Origin: Malus domestica
Lineage: Eukaryota; Streptophyta; Magnoliopsida; Rosales; Rosaceae
Assembly: GCF_042453785.1 (NCBI RefSeq)
Contig: NC_091675.1
Span: 2,988,501-3,052,500, forward strand
Direction of reading: 5' to 3'
DNA length: 64,000 nt
The notes under the pieces are model-generated. The model was given only the letters and a program-made list of their open reading frames with translations. It was not told where the DNA came from and searched no databases. The first letter of the stretch is position 1. Every line of letters begins with the position of its first letter. This document shows, piece after piece, positions 28,652 to 64,000 of the stretch. The position numbers and the translations under genes were made by a program.

Positions 28652-28892
28652 AGCACCTTTTTCCGGCTCAGAGTAAGGACTTGGATTCCTACCTTATTGG
28701 TAGGGTGGCGGTGCAATAAATTTCGGTATGGTTTTAGAAAACCTGTGGTAGCAATGTACTGTAACAAGGATAGAGAGACATAATGGGGAACTTATCAGGC
28801 TGTTAATGTGTATTACATGTCATCAGCCTCTAGCATAGAACTCTGTATGTGAATCTAGCTTCTCGTACTTTTGGTGGCAAGTGTAGCAGAAA

Positions 28893-30148
28893 AATGTCAA
28901 TGTGTTTGTAAAGTGTTTCTCATTGCCTTTGCTGTAAATCTAGTGTTTCTTTTCTTTTATAACTGTTTGAAATGTTTGGGCTTCATTTCGGGAAATAATG
29001 TCCGCACCTCATTTTTCTCCTTCTGCACACTTTATTTACTTGTGGCCCTTGGATTCTTATTTGATTCGTTCAATTCAAAGGTTAGGAATGAACAAGGGTG
29101 TGCAAAAGGAAAAAAAAAATAGTGTGCTAAAAATATCAATTCCCCTTCTTTTATCAACATAAATTCAATGGGGTATTCAAAAATGAGTTCAATGGGGTGA
29201 GAAACAATTTCTAGCCAACTGACTATGCAGTTAATCTTCCATTTAGTTCTTAATAAAACTTAATTACCAACTTGATTTCCTTCATCACCAACTATTAGAC
29301 TCCCCAACTCATGCACTCTCTTGATTAAGCTCCAACGACGTGTTTACTTATCAAGAATGGATGCAAAGAGATTGGTATCTTCTCATTCTTGGTATATCTA
29401 ACGCACAAGGAATGAAAGAATGAGTTCACTGTTGAAATTAGCTACGACCACCCAATTTCAATCACATGTCATTATCAGGGGGGGGCTCGTGCCATACTTG
29501 AACAACTTGGTATCATACTCATGCCCAAGCTGGGAGTACGAACTACTTCAACTTCACCAAAATTTCTCAAGGTCAACTATTCTTATATCTATATGTATAA
29601 TGGGAGAAGGCAAAAAAGGGAAGCTTTTATAATACCCAAATTGCCTTCTCCCATTGGTAATTTGAATAAATAAATAAATAAAGATCCACAAAAAAACCCA
29701 AGGTAATGATACTCGGGGTGATTAGTAAGTTCATTACTTTTCAAAATAAATAACAAAATTAAAAATAAACAGCCAATTGCCATACGCGTACGCATGTGGC
29801 AATAAACTAGTATTTAATAATATTTGCATAAAAGAACCAAAAACCTCAAATCTAAAGCAAAAATGTTTTTCTTACCATTATTTGTATCATCTCTCTTATA
29901 AAAATAGGACTCATGTGCCTTGACAAGCCTAATCTCTATTAGTAAGATGGTTGAACTAGATAATAAGGATAGCACTACTAAAAAAAAGTAAACCCGTCAT
30001 TTTGTACCTGAAAAAGAAACCCAAAACATTTCTGTAGAGAAAGAGAGAGGACTCAGAAACATTCAGTGGTTATCGGCAAGGCAACTTTGCCATTACGCAC
30101 GACGAGCGAACCAAATTGTTATCCTCATCGTCCTCCTCCTATGAAACC

Positions 30149-30235
<87 letters not shown>

Positions 30236-30236
30236 G
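28893..30236 (+). repeat. Amplified intergenic block, unit A
   Basis: Starts in the PP2C 3' flank (AATGTCAATGTGTTTGTAAA) and runs through a MITE (about 28991-29143) to a GA microsatellite (30152-30233). It is highly similar to unit B, with which it shares its left border. After the GA tract the sequence diverges. Confidence 0.85.
30152..30233 (+). repeat. (GA)n microsatellite, unit A
   Basis: About 41 uninterrupted GA units. The Arg-Glu repeat frames across it are artefacts. Confidence 0.95.
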
Positions 30237-31720
30237 AGAGTTTGTGCTGCACGCTGAGCAGCTGAGCTTTGGGGTTTATATATAAACATAATGTGAGTGC
30301 GAGTCTTATGTATTTAAAAGAATTGGAGTTTGGTGGGGGATGTCAAGTTTGAACTTTACTTTGCCTTGGCCTCCAAGCCTTTGAATTCAAACATTTATGA
30401 ATTATTATATTACATTTTTGTAATAATATTTGTGAATAATAATCAAATTCAACTTGCAGTCTGAGTTTGTATTCAGATGGTTTTCAAACTTATAATATAT
30501 AGGGTTATTATACAAAATAGTCCTTGAGATTTGCATGATCAATAGAAATGGTCCTTGAGATTGTCTACCATCCATGATTTTGGTCATTCCGTTAAAAACT
30601 CTTTACAATCTAAAAACATAATCTTCCTTGCATTTTCCTATCCCAATACCATTGATTTTTAATTTCAAATTATTAATTTGAGCTACTGCCAATAATGTCA
30701 ATGTGTTTGTAAAAGTGTTTCTCATTACCTTTGCTGTAAATCTTGTGTTTCTTTTGTTATACAACTATTTGAAATGTTTGGGCTTCTTTTTGGGTAATAA
30801 TGTCCGCACCTCGTTTTTCTCCTTCTGCACACTCTATTTACTCATGGCCCTTGGATTCTTATTTGATTCGTTCGATTCAAGGGCTAGGAATGAATAAGAG
30901 TGTGCAAAAGGAAAAAAAAATGATGTATTAAAAATATCAATACTCTTCTTTTATCAACATAAATTCAATGGGGTATTCAAAAATGAGTTCAATGGGGGTG
31001 AGAAACAATTTTTAGCCAACTAGCTATGCAGTTAATCTTCCATTTAGTTCTTAACAAAACTAAATTACCAACTTGATTTTATTACTCTCCAACTCATGCA
31101 CGCTCTTGATTAAGCTCCAACGATGTGTTTACTTATCAAGAATGGATGCAAAGGGATTTGTATCTTCTCATTCCTGGTATATCTAACACACAAGGAATGA
31201 AAGAGTAAGTTCACCGTTGAAATTAGCTACGTCCACCCAATTTCAATCACATGTCATTATCAGGGGGGACTCGTACCATACTTGTACAACTTGGTACCAT
31301 ACTCATGCCCAAGTTCGGAGTACGAACCACTTCAACTTCACCAAAATTTCTCAAACTATACTATTCTTATATCTATATGTATAAAGGGAGAAGACAAAAA
31401 AGTGAAGCTTTTATAATACCTAAATTGCCTTCTCCCATTAGTAATTTAAATAAATAAAGATCCAAAAAAAACCCAAGGTAATGAGACTTGGTGATTAGTA
31501 AGTTCATTACTTTTCAAAATAAGTAACAAAATTAAAAATTAAAAGAAAAATACCAATTGCCACATGCATATGCATGCGGCAAGAATCAAGTATTTAATAA
31601 TATTTGCATATAAAGAACCAAAAACTTCAAATCTAAACTAAAAATGTTTTTTCTTACCATTATTTGTACCATCCCTCTTATAGAAATGGGACTCACGTGC
31701 CTTGACAAGCCTAATCTCTA

Positions 31721-31910
31721 TTAGTAAGATGGTAGAACTAGATAATAAGGATATCACTACTAAAAAAAATGGTAAACCCGTCATTAGTAAGATAGTAGAA
31801 CTAGATAATAAGGATATCACTACTAAAAAAAATGGTAAACCCGTCATTAGTAAGATAGTAGAACTAGATAATAAGGATAGCACTACTAAAAAAAAAAGTA
31901 AACCCGTCAT
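31721..31910 (+). repeat. 63-bp tandem triplication
   Basis: Three consecutive units starting TTAGTAAGAT at 31721, 31784 and 31847. Units A and C contain a single copy, so the expansion is specific to unit B. Confidence 0.9.
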
Positions 31911-31918
31911 TTTGTACC

Positions 31919-32329
31919 TAAGAGCAACTCCACCCATGGAGCCCTCCCCCCTGGCAATCCACTATTCAATCCACCCTATTGAACAGTAACTGCCTTAAAT
32001 GAATAGTAATTACCATTAATGAACAGTAATTGCCATTTACATCTCCACCCTTGGAACCCTCCCCCCTGGCAATAAGCAATAAAAATAATAGTTTTTTATG
32101 TTTGTTTAAATAATAAAAAATTACAAAAGCTATCTCTCTCTCTCTCTGACACAAAAAAAATAAAAAATTACAAAACCCTCGGGCCACAGGCCCGTCGACT
32201 CCCCACCCCCCTTCGCTCGACCTCCCACCCTCACTCGGGCCCTTCCCCGCTGGATTTGCTCCCACCGGCCCGAGGGCCCTTTCTCCTCGCCTGACGCCCG
32301 AGCAACCAGCAAGGCTGGAGTTGCTCTAA
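31919..32329. mobile_element. PIF/Harbinger-type MITE with TAA target duplication
   Basis: The 405-bp element 31922-32326 has inverted ends GAGCAACTCCA / TGGAGTTGCTC and is flanked by TAA on both sides. The empty site is visible in units A and C (GTACCTGAAAAA), confirming the insertion and its borders. The interior is GC-rich near 32180-32310, unlike its surroundings. Confidence 0.88.
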
Positions 32330-32465
32330 AAAAGAAACCCAAAACATTTATGGAGAGAAAAAGAGAAGACTCAGAAACATTCAGTGGTTATCGGCAAGGC
32401 AACTTTGCCATTACGCATGACGAGCGAACCAAATTGTTATCCTCATCGTCCTCCTCCTATGAAAC

Positions 32466-32468
<3 letters not shown>

Positions 32469-32560
<92 letters not shown>
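32469..32560 (+). repeat. (GA)n microsatellite, unit B
   Basis: About 46 GA units at the place corresponding to the tract in unit A. Confidence 0.95.
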
Positions 32561-32563
<3 letters not shown>

Positions 32564-33392
32564 TTACGAAGTTCAGTAAAAAAATGTTTATGTCCCTAAA
32601 GAGATATTATTCTTCACTATGAGAATAACAATACAAGTTACACCTGAGTTAAATCGACATAACCCAATCCCATATTCCTTATACACCCACTCATATAATT
32701 TTTCCAAGAGCCTCACTCTACCCCACTCTACCCCAAGAGTTATTTCACCAGTGACTTTTCCCTCTAGCTCTCTTGTTTTTCTCTCAGCCCATGTTCAACC
32801 TTTCCCATGAGAGAGCCGAATGCTCTCCCCCTTGGACGCTTATGCGGTGCTTGCACACTTTGTAGCTCACGAATTGAGAAATTCGAACTGTTTAATTTAA
32901 AATTTGCAATCCCCATTAGCCAATTCTACTCACACACTACGCATACAATCTCTATTTTCCAACACTCAGATCTCTCTCTTGAATGATCCGAATTCTCATA
33001 TATGTGGGATCCGAAGTGTGGGAACCGATGAGGATCTCAATCCCTAATTGGAATGTCCTACAAATCACTATGAACAAAAGAAATAATTAACAATAGAAAG
33101 AAGTAAAGCATGGGGATTTTTAGCAATAAAGAAAGTCTACTATGCCAAAAGCTTATCCAATTAATGGTTTAATGATTTCCCTAATAGTATATATTATTCC
33201 TGATGCGAATCCCCAAACCAATAGCAATCCAGATTCTGATACGCCCGATACCAAAATAAAATTCGTTACTGCATAAGAACAAAGTTGCACAAAATCGACG
33301 GCCAATATTTACACAAAAAGCGAAATTACAAAGCTTGATTACCGGTTAATTACATCATTAACCTAAAACGACGGAACGATGCCGTTAATTCC

Positions 33393-34377
33393 GTTAATTA
33401 CTCAATGGGGTATTCAAAAATGAGTTCAATGGGGGTGAGAAACAATTTTTAGCCAACTAGCTATGCAGTTAATCTTCCATTTAGTTCTTAATAAAACTAA
33501 ATTACCAACTTGATTTCCTTCATCACCAACTATTACTCTCCAACTCATGCACGCTCTTGATTAAGCTCCAACAACTTGTTTACTTATCAAGAATTGATGC
33601 AAAGAGATTGGTATCTTCTCATTCCTGGTATATCTAACACACAAGGAATGAAAGAGTAAGTTCACCGTTGAAATTAGCTACGTCCACCCAATTTCAATCA
33701 CATGTCATTATCAGGGGGGACTCGTACCATACTTGTACAACTTGGTACCATACTCATGCCCAAGTTGGGAGTACGAACCACTTCAACTTCACCAAAATTT
33801 CTCAAACTATACTATTCTTATATCTATATGTATAAAGGGAGAAGACAAAAAAGTGAAGCTTTTATATTACCTAAATTGCCTTCTCCCATTAGTAATTTAA
33901 ATAAATAAAGATCCAAAAAAAACCCAAGGTAATGAGACTTGGTGATTGGTAAGTTCATTACTTTTCAAAATAAGTAACAAAATTAAAAATTTAAAAAAAA
34001 CAATTGCCATATGCGTACGCATGCGGCAAGAAGCAAGTATTTAATAATATTTGCATATAAAGAACCAAAAACTTCAAATCTAAAGCAAAAATGTTTTTCT
34101 TACCATTATTTGTACCATCTCTCTTATAAAAATAAGACTTACGTACCTTGACAAGCTTAATCTCTACTAGTAAGATGGTAGAACTAGATAATAAGGATAG
34201 CACTACTAAAAAAAAGGTAAACCCGTCACTTTGTACCTGAAAAACAAACCCAAAACATTTCTGTAGAGAAAGAGAGAGGACTCAGAAATATTCAGTGGTT
34301 ATCGACAAGGCAACTTTGCCATTACGCACGACGAGCGAACCAAATTGTTATCCTCATCGTCCTCCTCCTATGAAACC

Positions 34378-34472
<95 letters not shown>

Positions 34473-35256
34473 TTATGAAATTTAGTAAAAAACTGTTTAT
34501 GTCTCTAAAGAGATATTATTCTTCACTATGAGAATAACAGTACAAGTTATACAGGAGTTAAATCGACATAACTCAATCTCATATTCCTTGTACATCCACT
34601 CACATAATTTTTCCAAGAGCCTCACTCTAACTCTCTTGTTTTTCTCTCAACCCATGGGAACATTTCCCATGAGAGAGCCGGATGCTCTCCCCCCCCCCCC
34701 CTTCTTGGATCCTTATGTGGTGCTTGCACACTTTCTAGCTCACGAACTGAGAAATTCGGACTGTTTAATTTAAAATTTTCAATACCCATTAGCCAATTCT
34801 TCTCACCCACTATGCATACAATCTCTATTTTCCAACACCCAGATCTCTCTCTTTAATGATTCGAATTCTCAAATACGTGAGATCCGAAGTGTGAGAACCG
34901 AAGAGGATCTCAATCCCTAACCGGAATGTCCTACAAATCAGTATGAACAAAAGAAATAATTGACAATAGAAAGCAGTAAAGCATGTGGATTTTTAGCAAT
35001 AAAGAAGTCTACTCTGCCAAAAGCTTATCCAATTAATGGTTTAATGATTTCCCTAATAGTATATATTATTCCTGATGCGAATCCCCAAACCAATGGCAAT
35101 CCAGATTCTGATACGGCCGATACCAAATTAAATTCATTACTGCATAAGAACAAAGTTGTACAAAATCGACGGCCAATATTTACACAAAAAGCGAAATTAC
35201 AAAGCTTGATTACCGGTTAATTACATCATTAACCTAAAACGACGGAACGATGCCGT
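33393..35256 (+). repeat. Amplified intergenic block, unit C
   Basis: Corresponds to unit B from about 30965 onward and runs into the real 3' end of the CONSTANS-like gene. It lacks the MITE and the triplication of unit B. Confidence 0.85.
34381..34469 (+). repeat. (GA)n microsatellite, unit C
   Basis: GA tract interrupted once by GAAAGA near 34426. Confidence 0.9.
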
Positions 35257-46849: not shown

Positions 46850-48212
46850 CCCCTCTTCCGTTCCTCTTGTTTGCTCAGCCGCTCTCTCGCATCGCAACAC
46901 GTACAAACCGCGAGGTAAGTGCACTTCCTCTTCCCTTGCTCCTAATTTTTTCATCATTTTTCCCACAATTTATGAATATATAGGCTGCTATACTTCTGGT
47001 TGCAAGTTTACATATTTATTTTTTAACCTCGGTGCTGGTTTTTCTTCTGTTTTTACTGTTTTACGGCTTCTGTAGTGGATTGCTTTTGACGGGTTAGTCA
47101 AGATTTAATTTAGTATAGTAATTAGGGGGTAATCACTAGATTTGATAGTGTGGGTTTTGAAGATTAATGTGAATTTAGTTGAAGGATTCTGCAACAATGG
47201 GAAATGATTATTTCATTTGGTACTGCTAGTGATAAAATTTGGACCCTTTAGTTTAAGGCCAGTTTGGAAATGCTTCTCATGAAAGCACTTCTGCCAAATG
47301 TTACTAGAAGCGCCTTTAGTCGATTGTCTAGACGCAGTTCCAAACAGATTCTTAGGCGCTTGTTTGGGAATGCTTTTGTAGGAAGCCTGCTCATAAGCGC
47401 CTATGCTAGAAGAGCTTGTATGATAAATATGTTGAGTTTCTTCAAAAAGAGATTATGGGTAAAAGCGCTTTTATGTTTTTCTGCCAAAGGCAGTTAGAAG
47501 CGCTTTCAGAAGCAGTCCCAATATGGCTTAATATTGACTGTTATTTGAACTTGCAGGGAGTAATGTTCAAATAAAACGGGCTTAGCAAAACTTATTCTTT
47601 CCAATTTTAATTCGTACCATCATATTCGTGCAGGTGCTCAATTCTTGCATTAGAGTGCGACCTTACGTAGCTTAGAGTTATTAGGGTTTCAAGTAGAGGT
47701 GTAGACAGGGAACAATGGCGGCCAACTCAATCATGGTGCGTCCGTATGTGTTATCAGCCTCCTGCGCCTTTACTCGAGCTCTGCCATCCTTACTTTCTCA
47801 ACCAAGGAAAACACTGTTGGTATTTAAGAGCCGGGGCATCAGATTGTTGCACCATAGAGCAATTGGCAATGAAAACAGGAGCCTTATGAGATTGGAATAC
47901 GGTGGTGTGAGGAGATTCAGTCCTCGAGCTTCAAGCGTCGGAAATGCTGGCTCCATTGACTCCCCACTAATAGAATCCATGAAGAAAAAGATCAAGGAGG
48001 AGCTAAATGCGGAATCCGTTAGTGTAGAAGATATGAACGGGGATGGCCGGCATGTGGTCATTGATGTCGTCTCCTCGTCATTTGAGGGACAGTCGGCTGT
48101 AAATAGGCAGAGGATGGTGTACAAAGCCATATGGGAGGAGCTTCAGAACACAGTTCATGCAGTTGATCAGATGACTACCAAAACCCCGGATGAAGTTTCT
48201 GGTAAGAAGTGA
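46850..48212 (+). CDS. BOLA4: BolA-like protein, BOLA4 type (plastid/mitochondrial)
   Basis: The coding region is a single exon, 47715-48212 (165 residues). A 5' UTR exon ending at 46914 and a GT-AG intron (46915-47633) precede it and are visible by comparison with the duplicate copy. The first roughly 70 residues are a Ser/Arg-rich organelle transit peptide. The BolA domain follows (about 78-153; [38 protein letters not shown], then [31 protein letters not shown]) with the conserved helix-turn and the His in VHAVD that pairs with glutaredoxin-bound Fe-S clusters. BolA proteins work with monothiol glutaredoxins in iron-sulfur cluster handling. Residues match Arabidopsis BOLA4 (At5g17560, 177 aa) closely. 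Intact. Confidence 0.93.
47256..47530 (+). mobile_element. MITE in the BOLA4 5' UTR intron
   Basis: Ends AAGGCCAGTTTGGAAATGCTTCT and AGAAGCAGTCCCAATATGGCTTA are inverted relatives; the interior has repeated AGAAGCGC.TT motifs. The same element sits in the duplicate locus (62640-62912), so it predates the duplication. Confidence 0.7.
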
Positions 48213-48519
48213 TGATAGCGTTTACTAGCGGAATTTAATTGTTGCATTTGTTAGCAAGTGGTGGATTGCCTTGGTGGATAAGTGGCTATTGCAAAACAAT
48301 TGTTGGATTTGTTACAACAATCAAATTAGGCTACAAAGCCAAATATTATTGTCAACTGTTGTTATTATTCTTCGGACATTAGCGATACTATAAGAGGGAG
48401 AATCGGCCACAGGAGCTCGAGTACCCTATTCTAAATCTGTGCGGCAACATGTATGGCAATCCATGCAACCACCATTGATGAAGCTTTGATTATAGTGGTC
48501 GATGCATGCTATGACACAT

Positions 48520-49110
48520 TTAGGGCTTGTTTGTTATCCTACTTGAGTTCAACTTTTTTTAACTCAAACACACTTTTTGAGTTTTAGGCTTTGAATTCTT
48601 GTTTGGTAGGACTCTTTTTAAAAATTGGATTCAAAACTAACTTAAAAACATAGGCTATTTCTTAAAAACACTAAAAGTGAGTTTTTAGAGTTTTCATGCT
48701 CTCTCCTCAACATCTTCTTTTGCTCCTTCCTAACCCTCTCTTTTTCTCCTCTCCCCATGTCACACCTTATCTTCTCTCTCTTCAGCCTTTTGTCTTGTCT
48801 CTCTTTCTTCTCACTCATCACATTCTTTCCGTAATTTTTTGCTCTCTCCCTATCCTCCTCATCCTCTCCCTGTCTTTCTCTCTCCTCACCGACTATTTCC
48901 TCTCTCCTTTCTCCTTCCCAATTCTTTCTCTCCTCGAATTTTTGTTCAAGGAAGTTTGAATTCAAACTAAAAAAATTATTTTTAAAAATTCAACCAAACA
49001 GATTTTTGAAAATTTGAAGCTTGAAAGAAATCTATTTTCAAGTGATGTTATTTGAAAATTATTTTTAGGAACAATCAAAGTTTTTAGATAAGGTACCAAA
49101 CATGCCCTTA
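48520..49110. mobile_element. PIF/Harbinger-type MITE with TTA target duplication
   Basis: The 585-bp element 48523-49107 has ends GGGCTTGTTTGTTATC / GGTACCAAACATGCCC and TTA on both sides. The duplicate BOLA4 locus shows the empty site (CACATCTATATTTTGAGC at about 63944), which proves insertion after the duplication. Its CT-rich middle gives a spurious ORF. Confidence 0.9.
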
Positions 49111-53175: not shown

Positions 53176-54326
53176 ATTTATTTTTAAATTGGAATATATA
53201 TTTTTTTAATTGGTGTTTTGGAAATTAGGGAGGTATTTGAGTGGATGAAAAGAAGGTGAAGAAATTTGAGCTGATGAAAATGTAGGTGGTGGGTTATGGT
53301 ATTTATAGCAGGGGAAAAGTGTTTGTCTCTCTGTTTTGTTTTCTTTTTCTTTCTTAATGGTGGCACGGATTTGGTGATTTGGCCCTGTTTTTTGCTTGTG
53401 TGCATTTCAAGGTTGGATCGTGCTGATGTAAAGAAATTTAAGATTACTTAGAAATTTCAAAATGACGGAAATTGAAATGACAAAATTTTATTTTTTAGAA
53501 TTTGTAAATTTTCTTGTTTGTTAACCTAAAAAAACAATGAAATTGAATACGAAATTTTTTATTTTTAAACTCTCAATCATAGAAATTGGGAAATGACACA
53601 TATTTACATGAAATTTGAACTTGGTAATTGAAGGTCTCAAATTCCAAGTTTTTTTTCCATGCGGAAATTCTAAATTTATATGTTTATGAATCCAAATAAG
53701 GGAATTGGTGCATGTTAATTTATAAATTTTAATTTTTACCAAAATTTCAAGTTTATTTTTCTCATCCAAACATAATTTATGGGACTATAAAATACATTAA
53801 CCAATGATTCTTGAGGCCCAAGTTATGAACATGTATTATGATGATTTTATAGTCATATTTTTTAGTAAAATATTGAAATTTGTTAGATTGCGAGTCTAAA
53901 CTATTGACCAAGATAAAACCTGTCTGAAGTAATCAACTTCTCTTGGCCAATCTGCTTGTTTTTTTTATTTTTAATGTTAGGCCAATGAGCTTGTTGGGCA
54001 ATCATTAAAGTTTGGGTGCATTTTTGGTCCACGATTATCAAGTGGCAGTAATGTTTATCATTTTATTTATCATCATTTGATAAGTTTAAATTGTGAAACT
54101 TAATTGTGTTCATTTACTGCATAAATCTTAAAATTTAAGCTCACCTAATAGTGATAAAAAAATATAATAAACAATACCACAACTTGAAGATGGTGAGAAA
54201 AAATATTTCTTTAAAATTTTGAATACTGCATTGAAATGGATTACAGTATCTTAATTTGAAGAGATGATGCGATTTGTTACCTTCATAAGAGAGTGGTACT
54301 TGAAGAACATGATTGACAACAGTAAT
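53176..54326. other. GDU upstream region and AT-rich intergenic DNA
   Basis: The first 250 bp are the probable GDU promoter/5' UTR. The rest is AT-rich without supported features. Confidence 0.4.
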
Positions 54327-56182
54327 TTGTACTCTCATTACTTTTTGAGATGTGGGATGAGGAATATAAATTCTTATTCTAGCCAGTTTCTAAAAATAAA
54401 AAAGTAAATTATTATTCTAGCCCTCCACTAATAATGCGTCTAGAACTGAATGTTTTTGTTTTTTTTGGGGGTGGGGGACATCTTTTACTATTTCACATTA
54501 AATTTAATACAAAAGTAAAGTATAAAACAGGGCAACTATGAAATAGAGAGTGTGAGGGGTGGGGAGGGAAACATCTTTTACTATTTCACATTAAATTTAA
54601 TACAAAAGCAAAGTATAAAGCATAGTAACTTGCATGAAACAGATATATTGTTATTATATTATTTTCTATCAATATTACAACATCAAATAGAAATTTATTT
54701 TACACACATCTTTATAATTTATACTGTTGACATAAGATGTCCTGATAAGAGTATATCAGTACATCATTCTCCTGCTCTAGGGTTTTGTTTCAGGGGGTGG
54801 ATTGTATGCCCTCCTATTTCCATACTTTCCTCATCCCCTCCTATTTGTGTGATTACGGTTAAGCTATGTCAACATTTTATATTCCTATTACTTTTTTTAT
54901 ATTATTTGTATACAAAATTAATATAAAATATTTACATGATTTAACCGTGATCACACATCACAGGAGGACATTGGTAGAGTATAAAAATGAAAGGACCGAC
55001 AATCCACCTCCTTTGTTTCATGCTTGGGTCCATATCTGAAGCCCAGAGTAAAAACCCACTAAGTGTTAATTAGTCTGAAAGGGAGATTATGTGTATCCAA
55101 TGAAATTGACATGACAACTGGATTAGGATAGAAAATAATAAGCAATTGGTGGGTAAAGGGGCAGCTAAACTTGCATCACTTGCTTAGTGATCTGATTGAT
55201 GGTGTGTCCCAATTGATACCATTGGGTTCGGTTTGAATCGGTTCGATTTTTTGTACTCTCATTACTTTTTGAGATGTGGGATGAGGAATATAAATTCTTA
55301 TTCTAGCCAGTTTCTAAAAATAAAAAAGTAAATTATTATTCTGGCCCTCCACTAATAATGCGTCTAGAAATGAATGTTTTTGTTTTTTTGGGGGGGGAAC
55401 ATCTTTTACTATTTCACATTAAATTTAATACAAAAGTAAAGTATAAAACAGAGCAACTTACATGAAATAGAGAGTGTGAGGGGTGGGGAAGGGAACATCT
55501 TTTACTATTTCACATTAAATTTAATACAAAAGCAAAGTATAAAGCAGAGTAACTTACATGATATAGATATATTGTTATTATGTTATTTTCTATCAATATT
55601 ACAACATCAAATAGAAATTTATTTTACACACATCTTTATAATTTATACTGTTGACATAAGATGTCCTGATAATAGTATATCAGTACATCATTCTCCTGCT
55701 CTAGGGTTTTGTTTCAAGGGGTGGATTGTATGCCCTCCTATTTCCATACTTTCCCCATCCTCTCCTATTTGTGTGATCACGGTTAAGTCATGTCAATATT
55801 TTATATTCCTATTACTTTTTTTTTATTATTTGTATAAAAAATTAATATAAAATATTTACGTGATTTAACCGTAATCACACATCACAGGAAGGCATTGGTA
55901 GAGTATAAAAATGAGAGGGCCGACAATTCACCTTCTTTGTTTCATGCTTGGGTCCATATCTGAAGCCCAGAGTAAAAACCCACTAAGTGTTAATTAGTCT
56001 GAAAGGGAGATTATGTGTATCCAATGAAATTGACATGACAACTGGATTAGGATAGAAAATAATAAGCAATTGGTGGGTAAAGGGGCAGCTAAACTTGCAT
56101 CACTTGCTTAGTGATCTGATTGATGTGTGTCCCAATTGATACAACTAGGGTTGGGTTCGGTTTGAAACAGTTCGATTTTTTG
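54327..56182 (+). repeat. Recent tandem duplication, two units of about 924 bp
   Basis: 54327-55250 and 55251-56182 are nearly identical (first shared block TTGTACTCTCATTACTTTTTG). The second unit ends in the left terminus of a hAT-type element (GGGTTCGGTTTGAAAC). The first unit ends in a truncated piece of the same terminus, so the element was there before the duplication. The 124-residue frames in each unit are not supported as genes. Confidence 0.9.
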
Positions 56183-56869
56183 TCAAAATCGAAACCGAAC
56201 CGAAATTTTGGTTTGGTTCAATTTTTTTTCGGTTCGATTTTTTCCCGTTTGGTTTTTTTTTTTTTTTTTTTTTTTGTGAAAATGAATAAAAATTGAAATC
56301 TAAAATTTTAACATCTCCAATACAATCATAACATAAGCATTCCTACACAATGAAAATAAATATTTAAAAGTTCAACTAGAATCATCAATCAAATCTTCCA
56401 AAGTCCAAACTTAAAAAAAAAAAATCAAAGTTTAAGTCTTCAAAAAGTTCAAATTTAAAATAAACATTACACTTCAAATCTTCCACATCTAAAATAAACA
56501 TAACAAAGTTCAAATTTTACAGAAATATTCCACTTAACTAAAATCATAAACTCATATAAACCTTCAAGATTTCATGTCTTCCACGCACTTCTTCTCTTCA
56601 ACTCCTCAAGCTCAACGCTTAAGCGGCCTAGGAGGCAACATAGCAGATTAACACTGCAACCATTATCTCACTACGTGGTTAATCATCATATATATATAAG
56701 AGGAATGTTAACAATGCAACCCATTTAAGAAAAGGGGTAGCGTTTTTCGCACTGCATTTCCAGCTGTTTACACCTCAAAAATTAACATTTTATAATTTTT
56801 CGAACTCATAGAAGAGTGCAGAAATCACTGGCCTTCATTAAATTGTCACCCAAAAAAGATAACTTTTAA

Positions 56870-57262: not shown

Positions 57263-57269
57263 TGCAAAT

Positions 57270-57672
57270 TGTTTGTACCATACTTAGGGCCTCCGTATTT
57301 AGACCTCGTATAAATACTCGGGGGACTCAAGTGTAATTATGTAATAAATGAAGGGGCAAATATGTAATAAGTGAGGAGCCCTTAGTCTATAAAAGGGACT
57401 CCTCACCCTCACAATCCTCAGACCTCATTCTCCTCATTAGGGGAGGGCAAGTCTTAAGCTATGGGAAGAGAGCACATAGAAAATAGGCTAGAGAGCACAC
57501 TGCCTCTAACCTTCTTGTATATTCGCCATTCAGAGTGAAACAATATCAACATCAGTGTGAACGTAGCCCAAACATTGGGGTGAACCACGATACATATTGT
57601 GTTCTTTACTTTCTTGCAGATTCACGGCTAGATTTACGTTGTCCCAAGACCTTCCGGTTTTGTGCATCAACA
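57270..57672 (+). repeat. 5' LTR
   Basis: Starts TGTTTGTACCATACTTAGGG and ends TTGTGCATCAACA. It contains a TATAAAAGGGACTCC promoter-like motif (about 57391). Confidence 0.9.
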
Positions 57673-58000
57673 TTTGGCGCCGTATGTGGGAAACGACACG
57701 AAAAGCTATGTCGGTTCTCTTTCATTTTTTCACCTCCGCCGTGAATCTGCAAAAACCCAAGATCCAAAGCCAAACCCAGAACACACACATACTGGCCGTG
57801 CCAACTGCCACCTCGCTTCCCTCTGAGCTCGCCACCCTAGGTCCGCTTCAAACACCACCCCTCATCCTCAACGAGGATCCAACGATAGCGGAGCGAGATC
57901 CATGTCACTTGCTCCCGCACCTGCACCTGCAAATCACGTGTAGTGGTACTACCTAGTTGGGTGTAGTTGTAAACCCAACAAGATATTCAGAAGAGTTCAC

Positions 58001-58258
58001 CCATTGAGTTGGACCATCAACTGGTGCATTAGAAGGATCATCATGTACCTCCATGAAAACTTCATCCATTCCAACAACAACTGCTGTTCTTGCAATGCAT
58101 GGTAGTAACTCACGAAGACCACCACTGGCAACACCTTCATCGTTCAACTTTCTCCCAGCAGGCTATTGCAAAATATGTGTGATGTCAGCAACGATAGAAC
58201 AATTAACTTATATGATCCACTCCAAATTGCGGGGATCAACAATTAAATCATTATAGCC
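58001..58258 (-). pseudogene. Captured fragment of KDO-8-phosphate synthase (KdsA)
   Basis: Antisense to the LTR element. Contiguous similarity covers NDLIVDPRNLEW, GVASGGLRELLPCIARTAV and FMEVHDDPSNAPVDGPTQW of 3-deoxy-manno-octulosonate-8-phosphate synthase, a cell-wall sugar enzyme. The match runs without intron-like gaps across about 85 residues, which suggests capture from processed RNA. Only a fragment, not functional. Confidence 0.85.
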
Positions 58259-58267
58259 AACTAGTAA

Positions 58268-58762
58268 GGATATCTCCGTGATGAGGATGGTGAAACACCC
58301 TAACATCGTCGAGCTCTACGAGGTATTGGCAAGCAAGTCCAAGATCTATTTTGCTATGGATCTAGTCCGCGGTGGTGAGCTCTTCGCCAAAATCGCCAAG
58401 GGTCGGTTAAGGGAAGATGTAACCAGAGTCTACTTCCAGCAGCTCATCTCCGCCATAGATTTCTGCCACAACTGCGACGTCTACCATCGGGATCTGAAGC
58501 CGGAGAATCCCCTCCTCGATGAGGACGACAATTTGAAGGTCACCGATTTCAGACTCAGTGCTTTCATAGAGCACTTGAAGCAGAACGGGCTTCTTCACAC
58601 CACATGCGACACGCAGGTGTACGTGGCCCCAGAGGTCATCGGGGGAAAAAAGGTACAATGGGGACAAGGTAGATCTCTGGTCTTGTGACGTCATCATCTA
58701 CATGTTTCTCGTCGGGTTTTTTCCGTTTCAAGACGACAATCTCGTGGCCATGTACAAGAATC
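58268..58762 (+). pseudogene. Captured fragment of a CIPK (SnRK3) protein kinase
   Basis: Shows [82 protein letters not shown] and FPFQDDNLVAMY, the catalytic core of CBL-interacting kinases. It lacks the N-lobe start and the regulatory NAF part. Same orientation as the LTR element. Fossil fragment. Confidence 0.9.
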
Positions 58763-58997
58763 GAAGCTATGCGCCGTGCATTGCGTGAACACGGTGCTGC
58801 AGGGTCATTTCTTCTCTGAATTCGATTTGGCGGCGCTCGCCTCTGATCTCAATCAGAATGAGCGACAGATGATGCTTGTCGATGGTGGCTCACACGCCGG
58901 TGATTTCCTCTCCGAGGAGTCTCACAACGTCTCATTGGACGGCGATTTGAATATTCAGGAGAAAAGCACTGGGATTTGGCGCCGTTTTGTGCATCTC

Positions 58998-59166
58998 AAG
59001 TGTCAAGTCAGATATTATGCGGCTAATCGACGCCAAACAGAACATGGTTGGAGTGGTGAGTAAAAGTGAGGCTATTCGACTGGCTGACGAAACTGAACTC
59101 GATTTGGTAATATTATCTGCAGATGCCGATCCTCAAGTTCTCAGGATAATAGATTACAAGTATGTA
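58998..59166 (+). pseudogene. Captured fragment of translation initiation factor IF-3
   Basis: MRLIDAKQNMVGVVSKSEAI and ADETELDLVILSADADPQVL match the N-terminal domain of organellar IF-3. Fossil fragment inside the LTR element. The preceding roughly 200 bp (58790-58990) look exon-like but I cannot identify them. Confidence 0.85.
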
Positions 59167-59285
59167 TTTTGTTGATGCATCACCGCCTTACCCGCCAAAT
59201 CACTCAACACACCCACCAGATCTATTTCCGATGGATATCAAGTTCATTACAGCAGGAAAGCGGATGTGAGCTCAGAGCTTCAACA

Positions 59286-59364
59286 ATGGCGGAGAAGGGT
59301 CGTGGCAATGGGAGAAAGGAGGAGGTCATTACCAGGGAGTACACCATCAACCTCACTAAACGCA
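59286..59364 (+). pseudogene. Captured 5' fragment of ribosomal protein L31 (eL31)
   Basis: Starts at the L31 initiator region: MAEKGRGNGRKEEVITREYT then INLTKR, characteristic of eL31. The sequence before it may be captured 5' UTR. Fossil fragment. Confidence 0.8.
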
Positions 59365-59617
59365 TTGCAGAGGACTACCATCAACCTCACTTAACATTTT
59401 CTGTTGATGCTAGTAGTCGACGATTATCCCCACCATTTTCCGACCGCGCCCAGTCATCACGACATGGGCATCACTAGTAGTCGACTAGTCTCACACATCA
59501 TCGTCACCCGCAACCTCCTCAAACCGTTTTTGTGGGTGATGCCATCGGAAATGATGAGTCTGGATGGCTTTAGTCGACCACCCACATGGATTGCTTTTGT
59601 CGACCACCCACATGGAA

Positions 59618-59790
59618 AAGCTTTAGATGTGTTTGCTGTAAAGCAGGTATGCAAATATGCAAAGGAGATTGCTCTGAAAAATGGACCCATTATTCTTGAA
59701 ATGGGCATTTACAGGGACTATGGTCACTTTATGTCTGATCACACGTGATGAGATTTCTGGCATAAGGTTGTATACAAGTGGGCAACCAGC
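59618..59790 (+). pseudogene. Captured fragment of pyruvate dehydrogenase E1-alpha
   Basis: DVFAVKQVCKYAKEIALKNG, PIILEMGIYRDYGHFMSD and DEISGIR correspond to the E1-alpha segment following the thiamine-diphosphate site. An A-run follows within a few bases. Fossil fragment. Confidence 0.85.
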
Positions 59791-59793
59791 AAC

Positions 59794-59795
<2 letters not shown>

Positions 59796-59823
<28 letters not shown>
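59796..59823 (+). repeat. 28-nt A-run inside the LTR element
   Basis: A long uninterrupted A tract downstream of the captured PDH fragment and upstream of the minisatellite. It could be the poly(A) of a captured transcript or an expanded homopolymer. Confidence 0.9.
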
Positions 59824-59828
<5 letters not shown>

Positions 59829-60110
59829 CGTCCAATACTTCAAAATTATTCGACAGCCTGCCGCTATTATCACCAATCAAGTGATCAAAAGTACGTCCAG
59901 TACTCCAAAATTATTCGACAGCCTGCCGCTATTATCACCAACCGGGTGATCAAAAGTACATTCAGTACTCCAAAATTATTCGGCAGCCTGCCGCTATTAT
60001 CACCAACCGGGTGATCAAAAGTACGCCCAGTACTCCAAAATTATTCGACAGCCTGCTGCTATTATCACCCACTAGGTGAACAAAAGTACGTTTAGTACTC
60101 CAAAATTATA
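59824..60110 (+). repeat. 65-bp minisatellite
   Basis: About four and a half units with GTACGTCCAGTACTCC, ATTATTCGACAGCCTGCCGC and TATTATCACCAACCGGGTGA. Anchors are at 59826, 59891, 59956, 60021 and 60086, so the period is 65 bp. Confidence 0.92.
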
Positions 60111-60295
60111 CATGAGCATCATTCATGTCAATCATACATAAACATTCATGAGCATCACACATGTCAATCATACATAAACATTCATGAGCATCACTCATGT
60201 CAATCATACATAAACATTCATGACCGTCATTCATGTCAACATTCATAAGCATCACTTATGTCAACATTCATGAGCATCACTCATGTCAATCAGCT
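60107..60295 (+). repeat. About 36-bp minisatellite
   Basis: Repeated ATTCATGAGCATCACTCATG plus TCAATCATACATAAAC units, about five copies, the last ones shortened. Confidence 0.88.
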
Positions 60296-60476
60296 TCGAA
60301 AGTTTCATTTACAGAGCTCCAGCTTCAAAGCTTCACCTTAAAAGCTTCACCTACAAAGCTTCAGTGCATGGTATACAAAAACGGCCTTCGAACAAACCGC
60401 CACTTCGGCCCATACATGAATTGAATTTGAAGTCTCCAGCCAACAGCCTCTATTGATTGAAGACTTGGGGGACTAC

Positions 60477-60856
60477 TGTTTATACCATACTTAGGGCCTC
60501 CGTATTTAGATCTCGTATAAATACTCGGGGGACTCAAGTGTAATTATGTAATAAATGAAGGGGCAAATATGTAATAAGTGAGGAGCCCTTAGTCTATAAA
60601 AGGGACTCCTCACCCTCACAATCCTCAGGCCTCATTCTCCTTATTAGGGGAGGCCAAGTCTTAAGCCATGGGAAGAGAGCACACTGCCTTTAGCCTTTTT
60701 GTATATTCGCCATTCAGAGTGAAACAATATCAACATCAGTGTGGACGTAGTCCAAACATTGAGGTGAACCACGATACATATTGTGTTCTTTACTTTCTTG
60801 CATATTCACGGCCGGATTTACGTTGTCCCAAGACCTTCCGGTTTTGTGCATCAACA
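60477..60856 (+). repeat. 3' LTR
   Basis: Starts TGTTTATACCATACTTAGGG and ends TTGTGCATCAACA. Aligned over its whole length with the 5' LTR. Confidence 0.9.
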
Positions 60857-61194
60857 CAAATAATTATCAGGCAAGTCCATTGGCTCGTGGTTGCAGATAT
60901 TGATTTCACTGATGACGTCGCTAACAATGTAATCCATTCTCTCGAGCTTCATCTGCAAATAATAGTGGACCAACTCTTTTTCTGTGGGGTGGAATCGAAA
61001 TCCCATAAACAATCACACTGAAAATGAGCACACATTCATGGATCTCATAACACTAATAAATCCAGAAAATCGGCAGATTAATAGAAAATGCAAAGTATGA
61101 AATGAATACCTCTTTAATCAGAACCAATTTCAATAGATAAATAGAACAGAAAATTAAACACAGAGAAATGAGAGTATGAGACTAACCTTTTACA

Positions 61195-61520
61195 GGCGAG
61201 ACTCGAAACGACAAGAAGAAGCTCACGGCGAGATGAGAGACTGAAGACGAGGGCGAGGTGTGAGAGATTGAGAGTGAGAAGGGTCACGCCGTCGTGGGTC
61301 GCTTGGGATTTAAGATCGAGAGAGACAGACAGTGATTGAAGTTGAAGACCGAGAGAGAAAAAGATGAGGCTACCCTTTGCTGTCAAGACTCGAAAGGGCA
61401 AGAAAAAGCTAACGGCGAGATGAGAGACTGACGACGAGAGGGCGAGGTGTGAGAGATTGAGAGTGAGAAGGGTCGCGCCATTGTGGGTTGACTGAGAGAT
61501 TGAGAGAGACATAGCGATTG
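61195..61520 (+). repeat. Direct duplication, about 165 bp, in the hAT right half
   Basis: GACTCGAAA.G.CAAGAA, CGGCGAGATGAGAGACTGA, GGTGTGAGAGATTGAGAGTG and GAAGTTGAAGACC recur in the same order at 61200-61350 and 61385-61530. The minus-strand 132-residue frame across it is not supported as a gene. Confidence 0.75.
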
Positions 61521-62294
61521 AAGTTGAAGACCTAGCGAGAGAGAGGAGGCTCAGCTGCGCGAGAGGGTTACTGGGTTAGGGTTACACTGGAAGCAGGGAA
61601 CGAGAAAGAGAAGACTATCAGTGGCTAGGGTTATAGGGTTTTGTTGATTTCTCAAAAAAATTAAAAAACTTCTCTAAAATCTTGGACATAAGGGTTCGAA
61701 CCCATGCACTGCATCTTGAAAAGTTTCAAGAAACCAACTTGGCAACAGGTTATGTTTTGTTATGATTGTATACTAAACTATTTATAATATTGAAAAAATA
61801 ATTATATATATATATATATCAGTTTGGTTTGGTTTCCGAACCTCAAAAACCGAAACCGAACTGGCCAGATTCGGTTCGGTTTGGTTTGACAATTTTGGTT
61901 CGGTTTTTTTCGGCCTCGGTCCGGTTCAGTTTTCGATTTTTTGAATCCACCCCTAGATAACACCATAATTAAATAGCCATCTTTATATGTAACAATCCCA
62001 CTTTCTCCACTCAAACATGTTTCTTTTCTCTTTCTAATCCACTTTAAAGAGATTTTTAAGCACAATTAGGGCAGACTTTTTAAGGTCATAATCATGTAGC
62101 TCTGGCTGATGATGTAGTGAACTAAGAAATTCGATTTTAAAAAGCTGCAAATTGAATTTTGTCAGTGTTAATTAACAGAAAAGACACGAGGAGAGTTATA
62201 CAGAGAGAGGTGGATGAAACATATTGCATGGCTGACACGAGGAAATAATAGAGAACTGGCAGTGTATAATTGGTAAGTGGTAGGATCATCACAT

Positions 62295-64000
62295 GCGAGG
62301 TAAGTACGCTTCCTCTTCCCTCGTTTCTATGTTTTTCATCATTTTTCCCATAATTTATGAATATATAGGCTGCTATACTTCTGGTTGCAAGTTTACATAT
62401 TTATTTTTTAACCTCGGTGCTGGTTTTTCTTCTGTTTTTACTGTTTACGGCTTCAAAAGTGGATTGTTTTTTATGGGTTAGTCAAGATTTAATTAAATAT
62501 GGAAATTAGGGGGTAATCACTGGATTTGGTAGTGTGAGTTTTGAAGATTAATGTGAATTTAGTTGAAGGATTCTGCAACAACTGGGAAATGATTATTTCC
62601 TTTGGTACAGCTAGTGATAAAATTTGAACCCTTTAGTTTAAGGCCAGTTTGGAAATGCTTCTCATGAAAGCACTTTTGCCAAATGTTACTAGAAGCGCCT
62701 TTAGTTGGTTATCTAAACGCAGTTCCAAACAGATTCTTAAGCGCTTGTTTGGGAATGCTTCTATAGGAACCTGCTCATAAGCGCTTATACTAGAAGAGCT
62801 CGTATTATAAAAATGTTGAGTTTCTTCAAAAAGATAATATGAGTAAAAGCGTTTTTATGTTTTTCTGCCAAACGCAGTTAGAAGCGCTTTCAGAAGCAGT
62901 CCCATATGGCTTAATATTGACTGTTATTCGAACTTGCAGGGGGTAATGTTCAAATGAAACTGGGTTAGCAAAACTTGATGTTTGCTGTATCATTTATTCT
63001 TTCCAATTTTAATTCGTACCATCATATTCGTGCAGGCGCTCAATTCTTGCATTAGAGTGCGACCTTACGTAGCTTAGAGTTATTAGGGTTTCAAGTAGAG
63101 GTGTAGACAGGGAACAATGGCCGCCAACTCAATCATGGTGCGCCCTTACTCGAGCTCTGCCATCCTTACTTTCTCAACCAAGGAAAACTCTGTTGGTATT
63201 TAAGAGCCAGAGTATCAGATTGTTTGCACGATAGAGCAATTGGCAATGAAAACAGGAGCAATATGAGATTGGAATACGGTGGTGTGAGGAGATTCAGTCC
63301 TCGAGCTTCAAGCGTCCGAAATGCTGGCTCCATTGACTCCCCACTAATAGAATCCATGAAGAAAAAAGATCAAGGGGGAGCTAAATGCGGAATCCGTTAC
63401 TGTAGAAATCGAAGATATGAACGGGGATGGCGGGCATGTGGTCATTGATGTCGTCTCCTCATCATTTGAGGGACAGTGGGCTGTAAATAGGCAGAGGATG
63501 GTGTACAAAGCCATATGGGCGGAGCTTCAGAACACAGTTCATGCAGTCAGAAGACTACCAAAACCCCGGATGAAGTTTCTGGTAAGAAGTGATGATAGCG
63601 TTTATTGGCGGAATTTAATTGTTGCATTTGTTAGCAAGTGGTGGATTGCTTTGGTGGATAAGGCTTTTACCTTAAATCAACTGCGTCCCGAGTTCAAATC
63701 ATCCCCTCCCCTTAGTCTATTGCAAAACAATTGTTGGATTTGTTATAACAATTAAATTAGGCTACAAAGCCAAATATTATTGTCAACTGTTGTTATTATT
63801 CTTCGGATATAAGTGATACAAGAAGAGGGAGAATCGGCCACAGGAGCTCGAGTACCCTACTCTAAATCTTTGCAGCAACATGTATAGTAATCCATGCAAC
63901 CACGATTGATGAAGCTTTGATTATAGTCGTCCATGCAGGCTATGACACATCTATATTTTGAGCATTTTTTTAACGGGGATCGGAGCATTCGAGCAGTTTC
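62295..64000 (+). repeat. Duplicate of the BOLA4 locus (second copy, continues past window)
   Basis: Similarity to 46911-49150 begins at the GCGAG/GTAAGT exon-intron border of the 5' UTR and continues through the intron, the coding region and the 3' flank to the window end. The first copy carries a MITE (48523-49107) that this one lacks. This copy keeps about 55 bp near 63663-63718 that the first copy lacks. Confidence 0.92.
63117..63592 (+). pseudogene. BOLA4 duplicate, broken
   Basis: The start region [10 protein letters not shown] is kept, but about 25-30 bp of the transit-peptide region are missing. Further small length changes (an extra T near 63223, an extra A near 63367, altered length near 63405 and a deletion near 63549) move the frame several times through the BolA domain. 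The first UTR exon and the upstream promoter of the parent are also absent. The parent at 47715-48212 is intact. Probably a dead copy. Confidence 0.88.

Follow-up and report, generated by a model that had tools for sequence, protein, structure and literature searches.

Bs1 of maize is a long terminal repeat (LTR) retrotransposon described as having transduced pieces of three host genes (PMC13317346), as holding exons only (PMC4717578) and as a low-copy element (PMC2774510). GmaRetroS15 of soybean, a terminal-repeat retrotransposon in miniature (TRIM), is described as a small LTR element with exons only from three donors and a 5-bp target-site duplication (TSD), and the same source counts 30 gene-carrying TRIMs in seven subfamilies (PMC4717578). 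A large maize survey reports 425 intact LTR elements with gene fragments and, under the conditions of that survey, none that combines pieces of two or more standard nuclear genes (PMC2774510). The counts given for rice and sorghum are of captured genes (PMC3726574). LTR-mediated retroposition has been explained by template switching guided by microsimilarity (Tan et al. 2016, as described in PMC5408686). The window analysed here is a 64-kb stretch (C15:2988501-3052500) of a 651-Mb genome in 19 contigs, and the whole genome was searched. It holds at 57270-60856 a gene-transducing, non-autonomous LTR retrotransposon that belongs to a family with repeated multi-donor capture in the copies traced.

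Like Bs1, this is an LTR element with exon-only pieces of several host genes, and three of the donors between its LTRs are present with their introns absent. Bs1 has three donors, is low-copy and has a reported chimeric gene, whereas six donors are named here, the genome holds 1,905 family junctions and the cargo differs between most of the copies sampled. The difference from GmaRetroS15 lies in a size of 3.6-4.5 kb, a long tandem-repeat backbone and the turnover of cargo across the sampled family. The TRIM class was considered and rejected on size, with 3,587 bp for the window copy and 3.7-4.5 kb for its sisters versus 1,172-1,449 bp reported for gene-carrying TRIMs (PMC4717578). The Tan et al. 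model, as described, proposes the same enzyme step, places spliced partial mRNA between LTRs and allows several switches in theory; it deals with retrocopies of a parental gene, whereas many donors have accreted and been reshuffled in one family here. Gene fragments are common to the elements of the maize survey and this family, but multi-gene cargo, not seen under the conditions of that survey, is present here. Pack-MULEs and Helitrons also exist as many copies with different gene cargo; they are DNA transposons, and Pack-MULEs are reported to keep introns (PMC4717578), in contrast to the LTRs and spliced cargo seen here. Tandem repeats before the 3' LTR are described for Retand/Tat elements (PMC11963269) and precede the 3' LTR in this family as well, a trait of about half of the Retand/Tat elements that is not diagnostic. 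The copies studied here have no reverse transcriptase (RT), and placement of the family in Retand/Tat is therefore not possible. Among the open-licence papers listed in the literature searches, none was found to describe a family in which the ends stay constant and the multi-gene cargo differs.

The ends of the element read TGTTT...CAACA, and the same five letters flank it on both sides (Table 1). A sequence-only reading had placed an LTR element with these LTRs and the CAAAT duplication at 57265..60861, and its coordinates were right to the base. The two LTRs are equal at 365 of 380 aligned sites; 13 of the 15 differences are transitions, the Kimura two-parameter distance (K2P) is 0.041, and the 3' LTR is shorter by one 23-bp deletion. 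The same reading had recognised no element protein, in agreement with a Pfam scan (E up to 10) that found no transposon domain in the 10 interior stop-to-stop open reading frames (ORFs), the longest of which has 143 amino acids. Paired LTRs, TG..CA ends, a 5-bp TSD and ORFs free of gag-pol in that scan identify the element as a non-autonomous LTR retrotransposon. The region behind the 5' LTR is the predicted primer-binding site (PBS); 58 to 116 bp of region and leader are common to the sisters, depending on the copy. A Pack-type DNA transposon or a Helitron was rejected because the element has LTRs and spliced pieces; none of the seven inverted pairs listed lies at its ends, and no search for Helitron ends was made. 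The 64-kb window holds no second copy, and tRNA and Rfam scans of the window gave no match.

Six host donors are named in the interior: KdsA, a CIPK kinase, ataxin-3/Josephin, IF-3, eL31 and pyruvate dehydrogenase (PDH) E1-alpha. At least five captured genes had been proposed from the letters alone, and protein searches support each of the five names given then, with KdsA in antisense. The best PDB relative of the KdsA piece is KDO8P synthase (E = 6.7e-10), and its reverse strand matches the DAHP-synthase-type Pfam family (E = 4.1e-4, below the family cut-off). The CIPK piece matches CIPK23 in PDB (E = 9.5e-49) and the protein kinase family in Pfam. IF-3 is identified by the IF3_N domain in Pfam (E = 1.1e-15) and by IF-3 in PDB (E = 1.2e-7), PDH E1-alpha by E1_dh in Pfam (E = 2.1e-9) with a weak PDB match (0.09), and eL31 by PDB (E = 4.5e-4) with a Pfam match under the cut-off (0.071). 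The piece at 58790-58990 had been called exon-like and had been left without a name; it is now assigned to ataxin-3 by Josephin in Pfam (E = 1.3e-15) and ataxin-3 in PDB (E = 5.3e-10). The stretches without a donor name are 57789-57996, which holds a 39-bp match to C14, 59171-59227 and 59390-59625.

Table 1. Features of the LTR retrotransposon and its cargo, in window positions.
Feature	Position	Strand	Remarks
Target-site duplication CAAAT, left	57265..57269	.	same letters at 60857-60861
5' LTR	57270..57672	+	403 bp
Predicted primer-binding-site region and leader	57673..57788	+	partly common to sisters
Short piece	57956..57994	.	39 bp, 95% match to C14:13751196-13751234; gene not named
KdsA fragment	57997..58260	-	antisense to element; five exons joined, four introns absent
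CIPK kinase fragment	58268..58755	+	one frameshift; match to C15:11291812-11292298 continuous, 91%
Ataxin-3 (Josephin) fragment	58752..58980	+	two exons joined; GTAC overlaps CIPK end
IF-3 fragment	58993..59170	+	four exons joined, three introns absent
eL31 piece	59228..59369	+	probable 5' untranslated region and first codons, ATG at 59286; donor gene not settled
Piece without gene name	59390..59625	+	common to other loci, e.g. C8:8060366-8060827
Pyruvate dehydrogenase E1-alpha fragment	59623..59767	+	protein match; donor gene not settled
Run of 29 A	59796..59824	+	at cargo/backbone border; sisters hold A-rich sense tracts near same border
65-bp tandem repeats, backbone	59822..60110	+	common to sisters
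25/36-bp tandem repeats, backbone	60101..60295	+	36-bp repeats common to sisters
Polypurine-tract region (GACTTGGGGGACTAC)	60462..60476	+	precedes 3' LTR
3' LTR	60477..60856	+	380 bp
Target-site duplication CAAAT, right	60857..60861	.	matches left copy

Genome searches with the cargo pieces gave exon-by-exon matches to candidate donor loci. Four KdsA exons match C5:35692255-35693553 with identities of 96, 91, 88 and 91%, and a fifth exon of nine letters is followed at that locus by GTAAGT; the four introns between them, of about 270-385 bp each, are absent from the element. One KdsA acceptor reads GG at the C5 locus (comparison of L053 and L055) and AG at the C10 homoeologue, so the true donor may be either locus. 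The C5 locus, given its GG acceptor, may be decaying or spliced otherwise. Three IF-3 exons match C15:11057521-11058789 and likewise C2:487726-488653, and a fourth exon upstream, with 14 of 16 letters equal, brings the absent introns to three, of about 100 bp to 1 kb. The proteins point to a plant, and C2/C15 and C5/C10 are presumably homoeologous pairs of an apple-like genome, as the paired search matches suggest. Exon 1 of ataxin-3 matches C4:22913449-22913656 at 92%. The second exon, 25 letters that match exactly, lies about 430 bp beyond the first, behind a CAG acceptor, with an alignment score of 50 versus 27 for the best of 300 shuffles, and the one intron between them is absent. The CIPK donor match shows no intron gap. 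In sum eight introns are absent, and the mapping of fragments to intron-bearing genes identifies the KdsA, IF-3 and ataxin-3 pieces as spliced copies. GT letters had suggested retained introns at the outer limits of the KdsA and IF-3 pieces; set against the donors, no more than about 4 and 12 bp, respectively, may be intron-like. A separate dispersed repeat (L061, L062, L063 and about 10 further loci, several at C5:35.11-35.22 Mb) holds KdsA exon 4. About 600-740 bp are common to L061-L063, and intron-like letters flank the exon, which is thus unspliced there.

The pattern of the polypurine tract (PPT) and 3' LTR junction has 975 + 930 = 1,905 genome matches with at most two mismatches versus 0 for the reversed control, a number that counts 3' junctions and not intact elements. 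Sisters were chosen by LTR. Twenty regions were fetched from the best 40 of 3,165 LTR candidates, and 13 of these copies have a complete interior (L009-L016, L021, L022, L023, L025, L026). Those left out are L018 and L019 with one LTR, L024 with one end, L017 and L020, in which two family LTRs stand head to head a short distance apart, and L027/L028, one 10-kb family copy with an antisense RT ORF like that of long interspersed nuclear elements, probably nested as judged by eye. The leader, the 65-bp repeats, the 36-bp repeats and the pre-PPT segment are common to the window copy and all 13 sisters. A stretch of about 110-350 bp before the repeats is common to 11 of the 13 and is missing from the window copy. 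At the best of nine offsets, the TSD is exact in four of 10 sisters and has at most one mismatch in eight of 10 (L021, L023, L025 and L069 excluded). The LTR K2P of 11 well-bounded sisters is 0.042-0.093, a range that excludes the badly bounded L021 and L069 and to which no rate was fitted. In sisters such as L009-L016, L021-L023 and L026, part of the LTR (about positions 92-142, including the TATA-like CTATAAAAGGGA) is present in repeated copies between the pre-PPT segment and the PPT, and the window copy does not have them.

The cargo between these constant ends mostly differs among the 13 sisters. Only L012 and L021 match over the whole length (87%); L025 has 0.5 kb in common with these two, a length that includes backbone, short bits are common to L010 and L014, and the PDH-side piece of the window copy is also in L013. 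All 82 ORFs of at least 75 amino acids from the 13 cargos, taken without selection, contain nine Pfam families at E ≤ 0.001 (phosphoesterase, two kinase models, mitochondrial carrier, NADPH oxidase, oleosin, UPF0176_N, tubulin and Arm), all of them host families, and Pfam found no transposon family among them. A control set of 82 ORFs, likewise of at least 75 amino acids and drawn from the flanks of eight of the loci, contains eight Pfam families, all typical of transposons if the Myb/SANT family is counted as such. Cargo is denser in such ORFs, with 82 in 18.9 kb versus 82 in 43.1 kb of flanks. A second tubulin was found in L023 among twenty hand-picked ORFs. A Pfam-named host piece at E ≤ 0.001 is present in nine of the 13 sisters, or in 10 if L012 is counted through L021. 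The sequence-only reading had called an element with five or more donors unusual. It is not a lone case, and most of the sampled relatives also carry host pieces.

Three sisters were traced to their sources. L015 is tiled by matches to at least four loci (C3:6077813-6078703, the phosphoesterase; C12:3613827-3614009; C1:31179101-31179198; C14:31269001-31269210). L014 is tiled by at least six: C5:43952831, C2:14571611, C9:332782, two joined exons at C8:6684554 and 6684744, three joined exons at C6:35127342-35128115, and the oleosin part at C14:29440828. L016 contains three joined exons of the carrier gene at C1:18440750-18442012 and a piece matching C15:8561929-8562020. There are at least two sources per copy in all three; some of these loci may be repeat copies, and exon structure was seen only where stated.

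Relatives found through common cargo form a selected set, of which six were read (L044, L049, L054, L057, L069 and L070). All six carry the family LTR, and both LTRs were seen in L069 alone, the others being truncated or showing a single LTR. KdsA lies in the same antisense orientation in L054 and L057, where the other pieces are absent. The ataxin-3 piece, whole or only its end, together with the beginning of IF-3 is common to L069, L070 and L049, and the IF-3/eL31 joint is also in L044 and L070. C8:8060206-8060827 matches window positions 59179-59800, the eL31-to-PDH part, at 92-95% and gave no match in the genome searches with KdsA, CIPK and ataxin-3. The full-length CIPK piece at 86% or more matches two gene loci alone in the genome (C15 and C2). 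The ataxin-3/IF-3 part is present in L069 and L070 with neither KdsA nor CIPK, and their ataxin-3 begins 31-35 bp earlier than that of the window copy, which is cut at GTAC, letters that are present in both donors and on which CIPK ends. The longer ataxin-3 and the cut at GTAC indicate that the ataxin-3/IF-3 fusion is older and that CIPK was joined later. KdsA is common to L054 and the window copy, another 110-bp piece to L054 and L070, and a 253-bp piece to L049 and L069. The pattern of module sharing is reticulate. At 58982, the ataxin-3/IF-3 joint agrees with the LTR end in 14 of 15 letters, a level reached in 0 of 300 mononucleotide shuffles; a U5/PBS remnant is not claimed there, since L069/L070 have a less LTR-like joint and L049 a shorter one.

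When the C2 locus serves as the outgroup, the element branch has changes at 38 of 487 CIPK sites, 12, 12 and 14 of them at the three codon positions; the donor branch has three (0, 0, 3) and the outgroup side 29, and two are unclear. The CIPK piece decays neutrally, with no sign of protein-level selection. The 7.8% on this branch versus about 2% per LTR since insertion indicates that most of the change pre-dates the last jump or comes from reverse-transcription error. Ataxin-3 changes by codon position are 1:3:9 in the window copy, 5:6:4 in L069 and 7:5:6 in L070, and these counts are small.

The family very probably owes its make-up to repeated template switches between RNAs of the element and of the host, together with recombination within the family. 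Spliced cargo requires an RNA step. A published model has reverse transcription switch templates between LTR RNAs and cellular mRNA (as outlined in PMC5408686), and recombination among members of LTR families during transposition bursts is reported in PMC5668417. In the proposed mechanism an unseen gag-pol element would mobilise the non-autonomous family in trans. During minus-strand synthesis the growing cDNA would depart from the element RNA, often at the A-rich border before the 3' tandem repeats, copy parts of one or more host mRNAs packaged along with it, and then rejoin the leader/PBS. Poly(A) or A-rich stretches of the mRNA could offer a T-rich cDNA end a place to pair. Captured cargo would be copied along in later rounds, and switching between the RNAs of two family members would reshuffle the modules. 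The window copy would then consist of the leader with the antisense KdsA part, an older ataxin-3/IF-3/eL31 part, the later CIPK capture, which would have truncated ataxin-3 at GTAC, and the eL31-to-PDH part.

Counting one piece per donor, 14 of 16 named pieces are in sense orientation (5/6 in the window copy and 9/10 in the sisters, whose ORFs were picked by eye and counted by hand; two-sided binomial about 0.004 by hand). Such a sense bias is expected when the minus strand switches between plus-strand RNAs. Purine-rich sense 40-mers number 24 in the 22.3 kb of the 13 interiors, spread over 11 of the copies, versus six that are pyrimidine-rich; the 43.1 kb of flanks has 0 and five. A-rich 30-mers number 48 versus 11 T-rich in the interiors, with 22 and 37 in the flanks. 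These A-rich or purine-rich sense tracts lie near the cargo border and some lie inside the cargo.

Several observations weigh against this account. Two pieces, KdsA and a kinase fragment of L011, run antisense, an orientation that simple minus-strand switching does not yield. The A-rich tracts are partly common by descent. The autonomous partner was not found, and no gag-pol was recognised by eye in the 10-kb copy. Donor-match overlaps are 2-11 bp at nine joints versus 2-12 bp at exon-exon joints (gapped joints excluded), which makes microhomology weak evidence. L010 and L022 have no Pfam-named host gene, and L026 and L012 have only a weak PPR (E = 0.013) and a weak Arm match (E = 0.072). Among three unselected junction copies one has a named host piece, L072, with the leader and a hydrolase-like piece (Peptidase_S15, E = 1.6e-8). 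The other two are uninformative: L073 is short, with its 5' LTR within the stretch that was read, and the stretch read for L071 shows no backbone, while three ORFs scanned from it gave no Pfam match.

That all donors were captured together in a single round of reverse transcription is improbable. Their identities are alike (about 85-97%), as a single round would have it, but the relatives with subsets of the cargo contradict it as the sole event: L069 and L070 with the longer ataxin-3 and neither KdsA nor CIPK, L054 and L057 with KdsA alone, and the C8 locus with the eL31-to-PDH part. Placement of the gene pieces by DNA-level capture, nested insertions or assembly error is more improbable still. 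Other plant transposons are reported to capture genomic DNA (PMC4717578), and the dispersed repeat with KdsA exon 4 and its flanking intron letters is an example of unspliced sequence in this genome. The eight absent introns refute this route for KdsA, IF-3 and ataxin-3; CIPK, with its continuous donor, eL31 and PDH fall outside the splicing test. The ataxin-3/IF-3 and IF-3/eL31 joints and the stretch 59179-59800 recur at other loci, which argues against both assembly error and nested insertions, the outcomes that the listing of sister copies could have revealed; what it revealed is a common backbone with mostly different cargo.

A function of the chimera, with the LTR driving a chimeric protein or antisense or small RNA against KdsA or other donors, appears unlikely as judged from the letters. 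KdsA is antisense, and exact matches to the candidate donors of 39 nt (KdsA), 34 nt (CIPK), 46 nt (ataxin-3) and 45 nt (IF-3) would be long enough for 21-24-nt RNAs; small RNAs are reported to map to some LTR-captured genes of rice and sorghum (PMC3726574). The even spread of CIPK changes over the codon positions, its frameshift, the shortness of the longest interior ORF and the variation of cargo between copies all speak against such a function.

The chances are about even that template switching and recombination have made the family a standing RNA-level gene-shuffling system, in which most of the roughly 1,900 copies would each be a different mosaic of several spliced host mRNAs, built by switching at the A-rich segment and by module exchange. 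If so, one genome would contain thousands of exon fusions. The multi-gene cases found in print carry three donors, half the number named in the window copy. Copies with and without the later joins coexist, so the steps of capture are open to testing, as are the entry of mRNA into particles, the sites of RT switching, the speed of fusion birth and decay, and a possible feeding of small RNAs against donor genes by antisense cargo. In such a genome, chimeras may be counted among the annotated genes.

Large direct repeats lie elsewhere in the window: a 0.93-kb tandem at 54326-56183 (95%), units of about 0.8-1.1 kb at 28890-35256 (88-94%), a 1.6-kb pair at 46910-48522 and 62295-63953 (88%), and a 190-bp tandem at 61176-61551 (81%).

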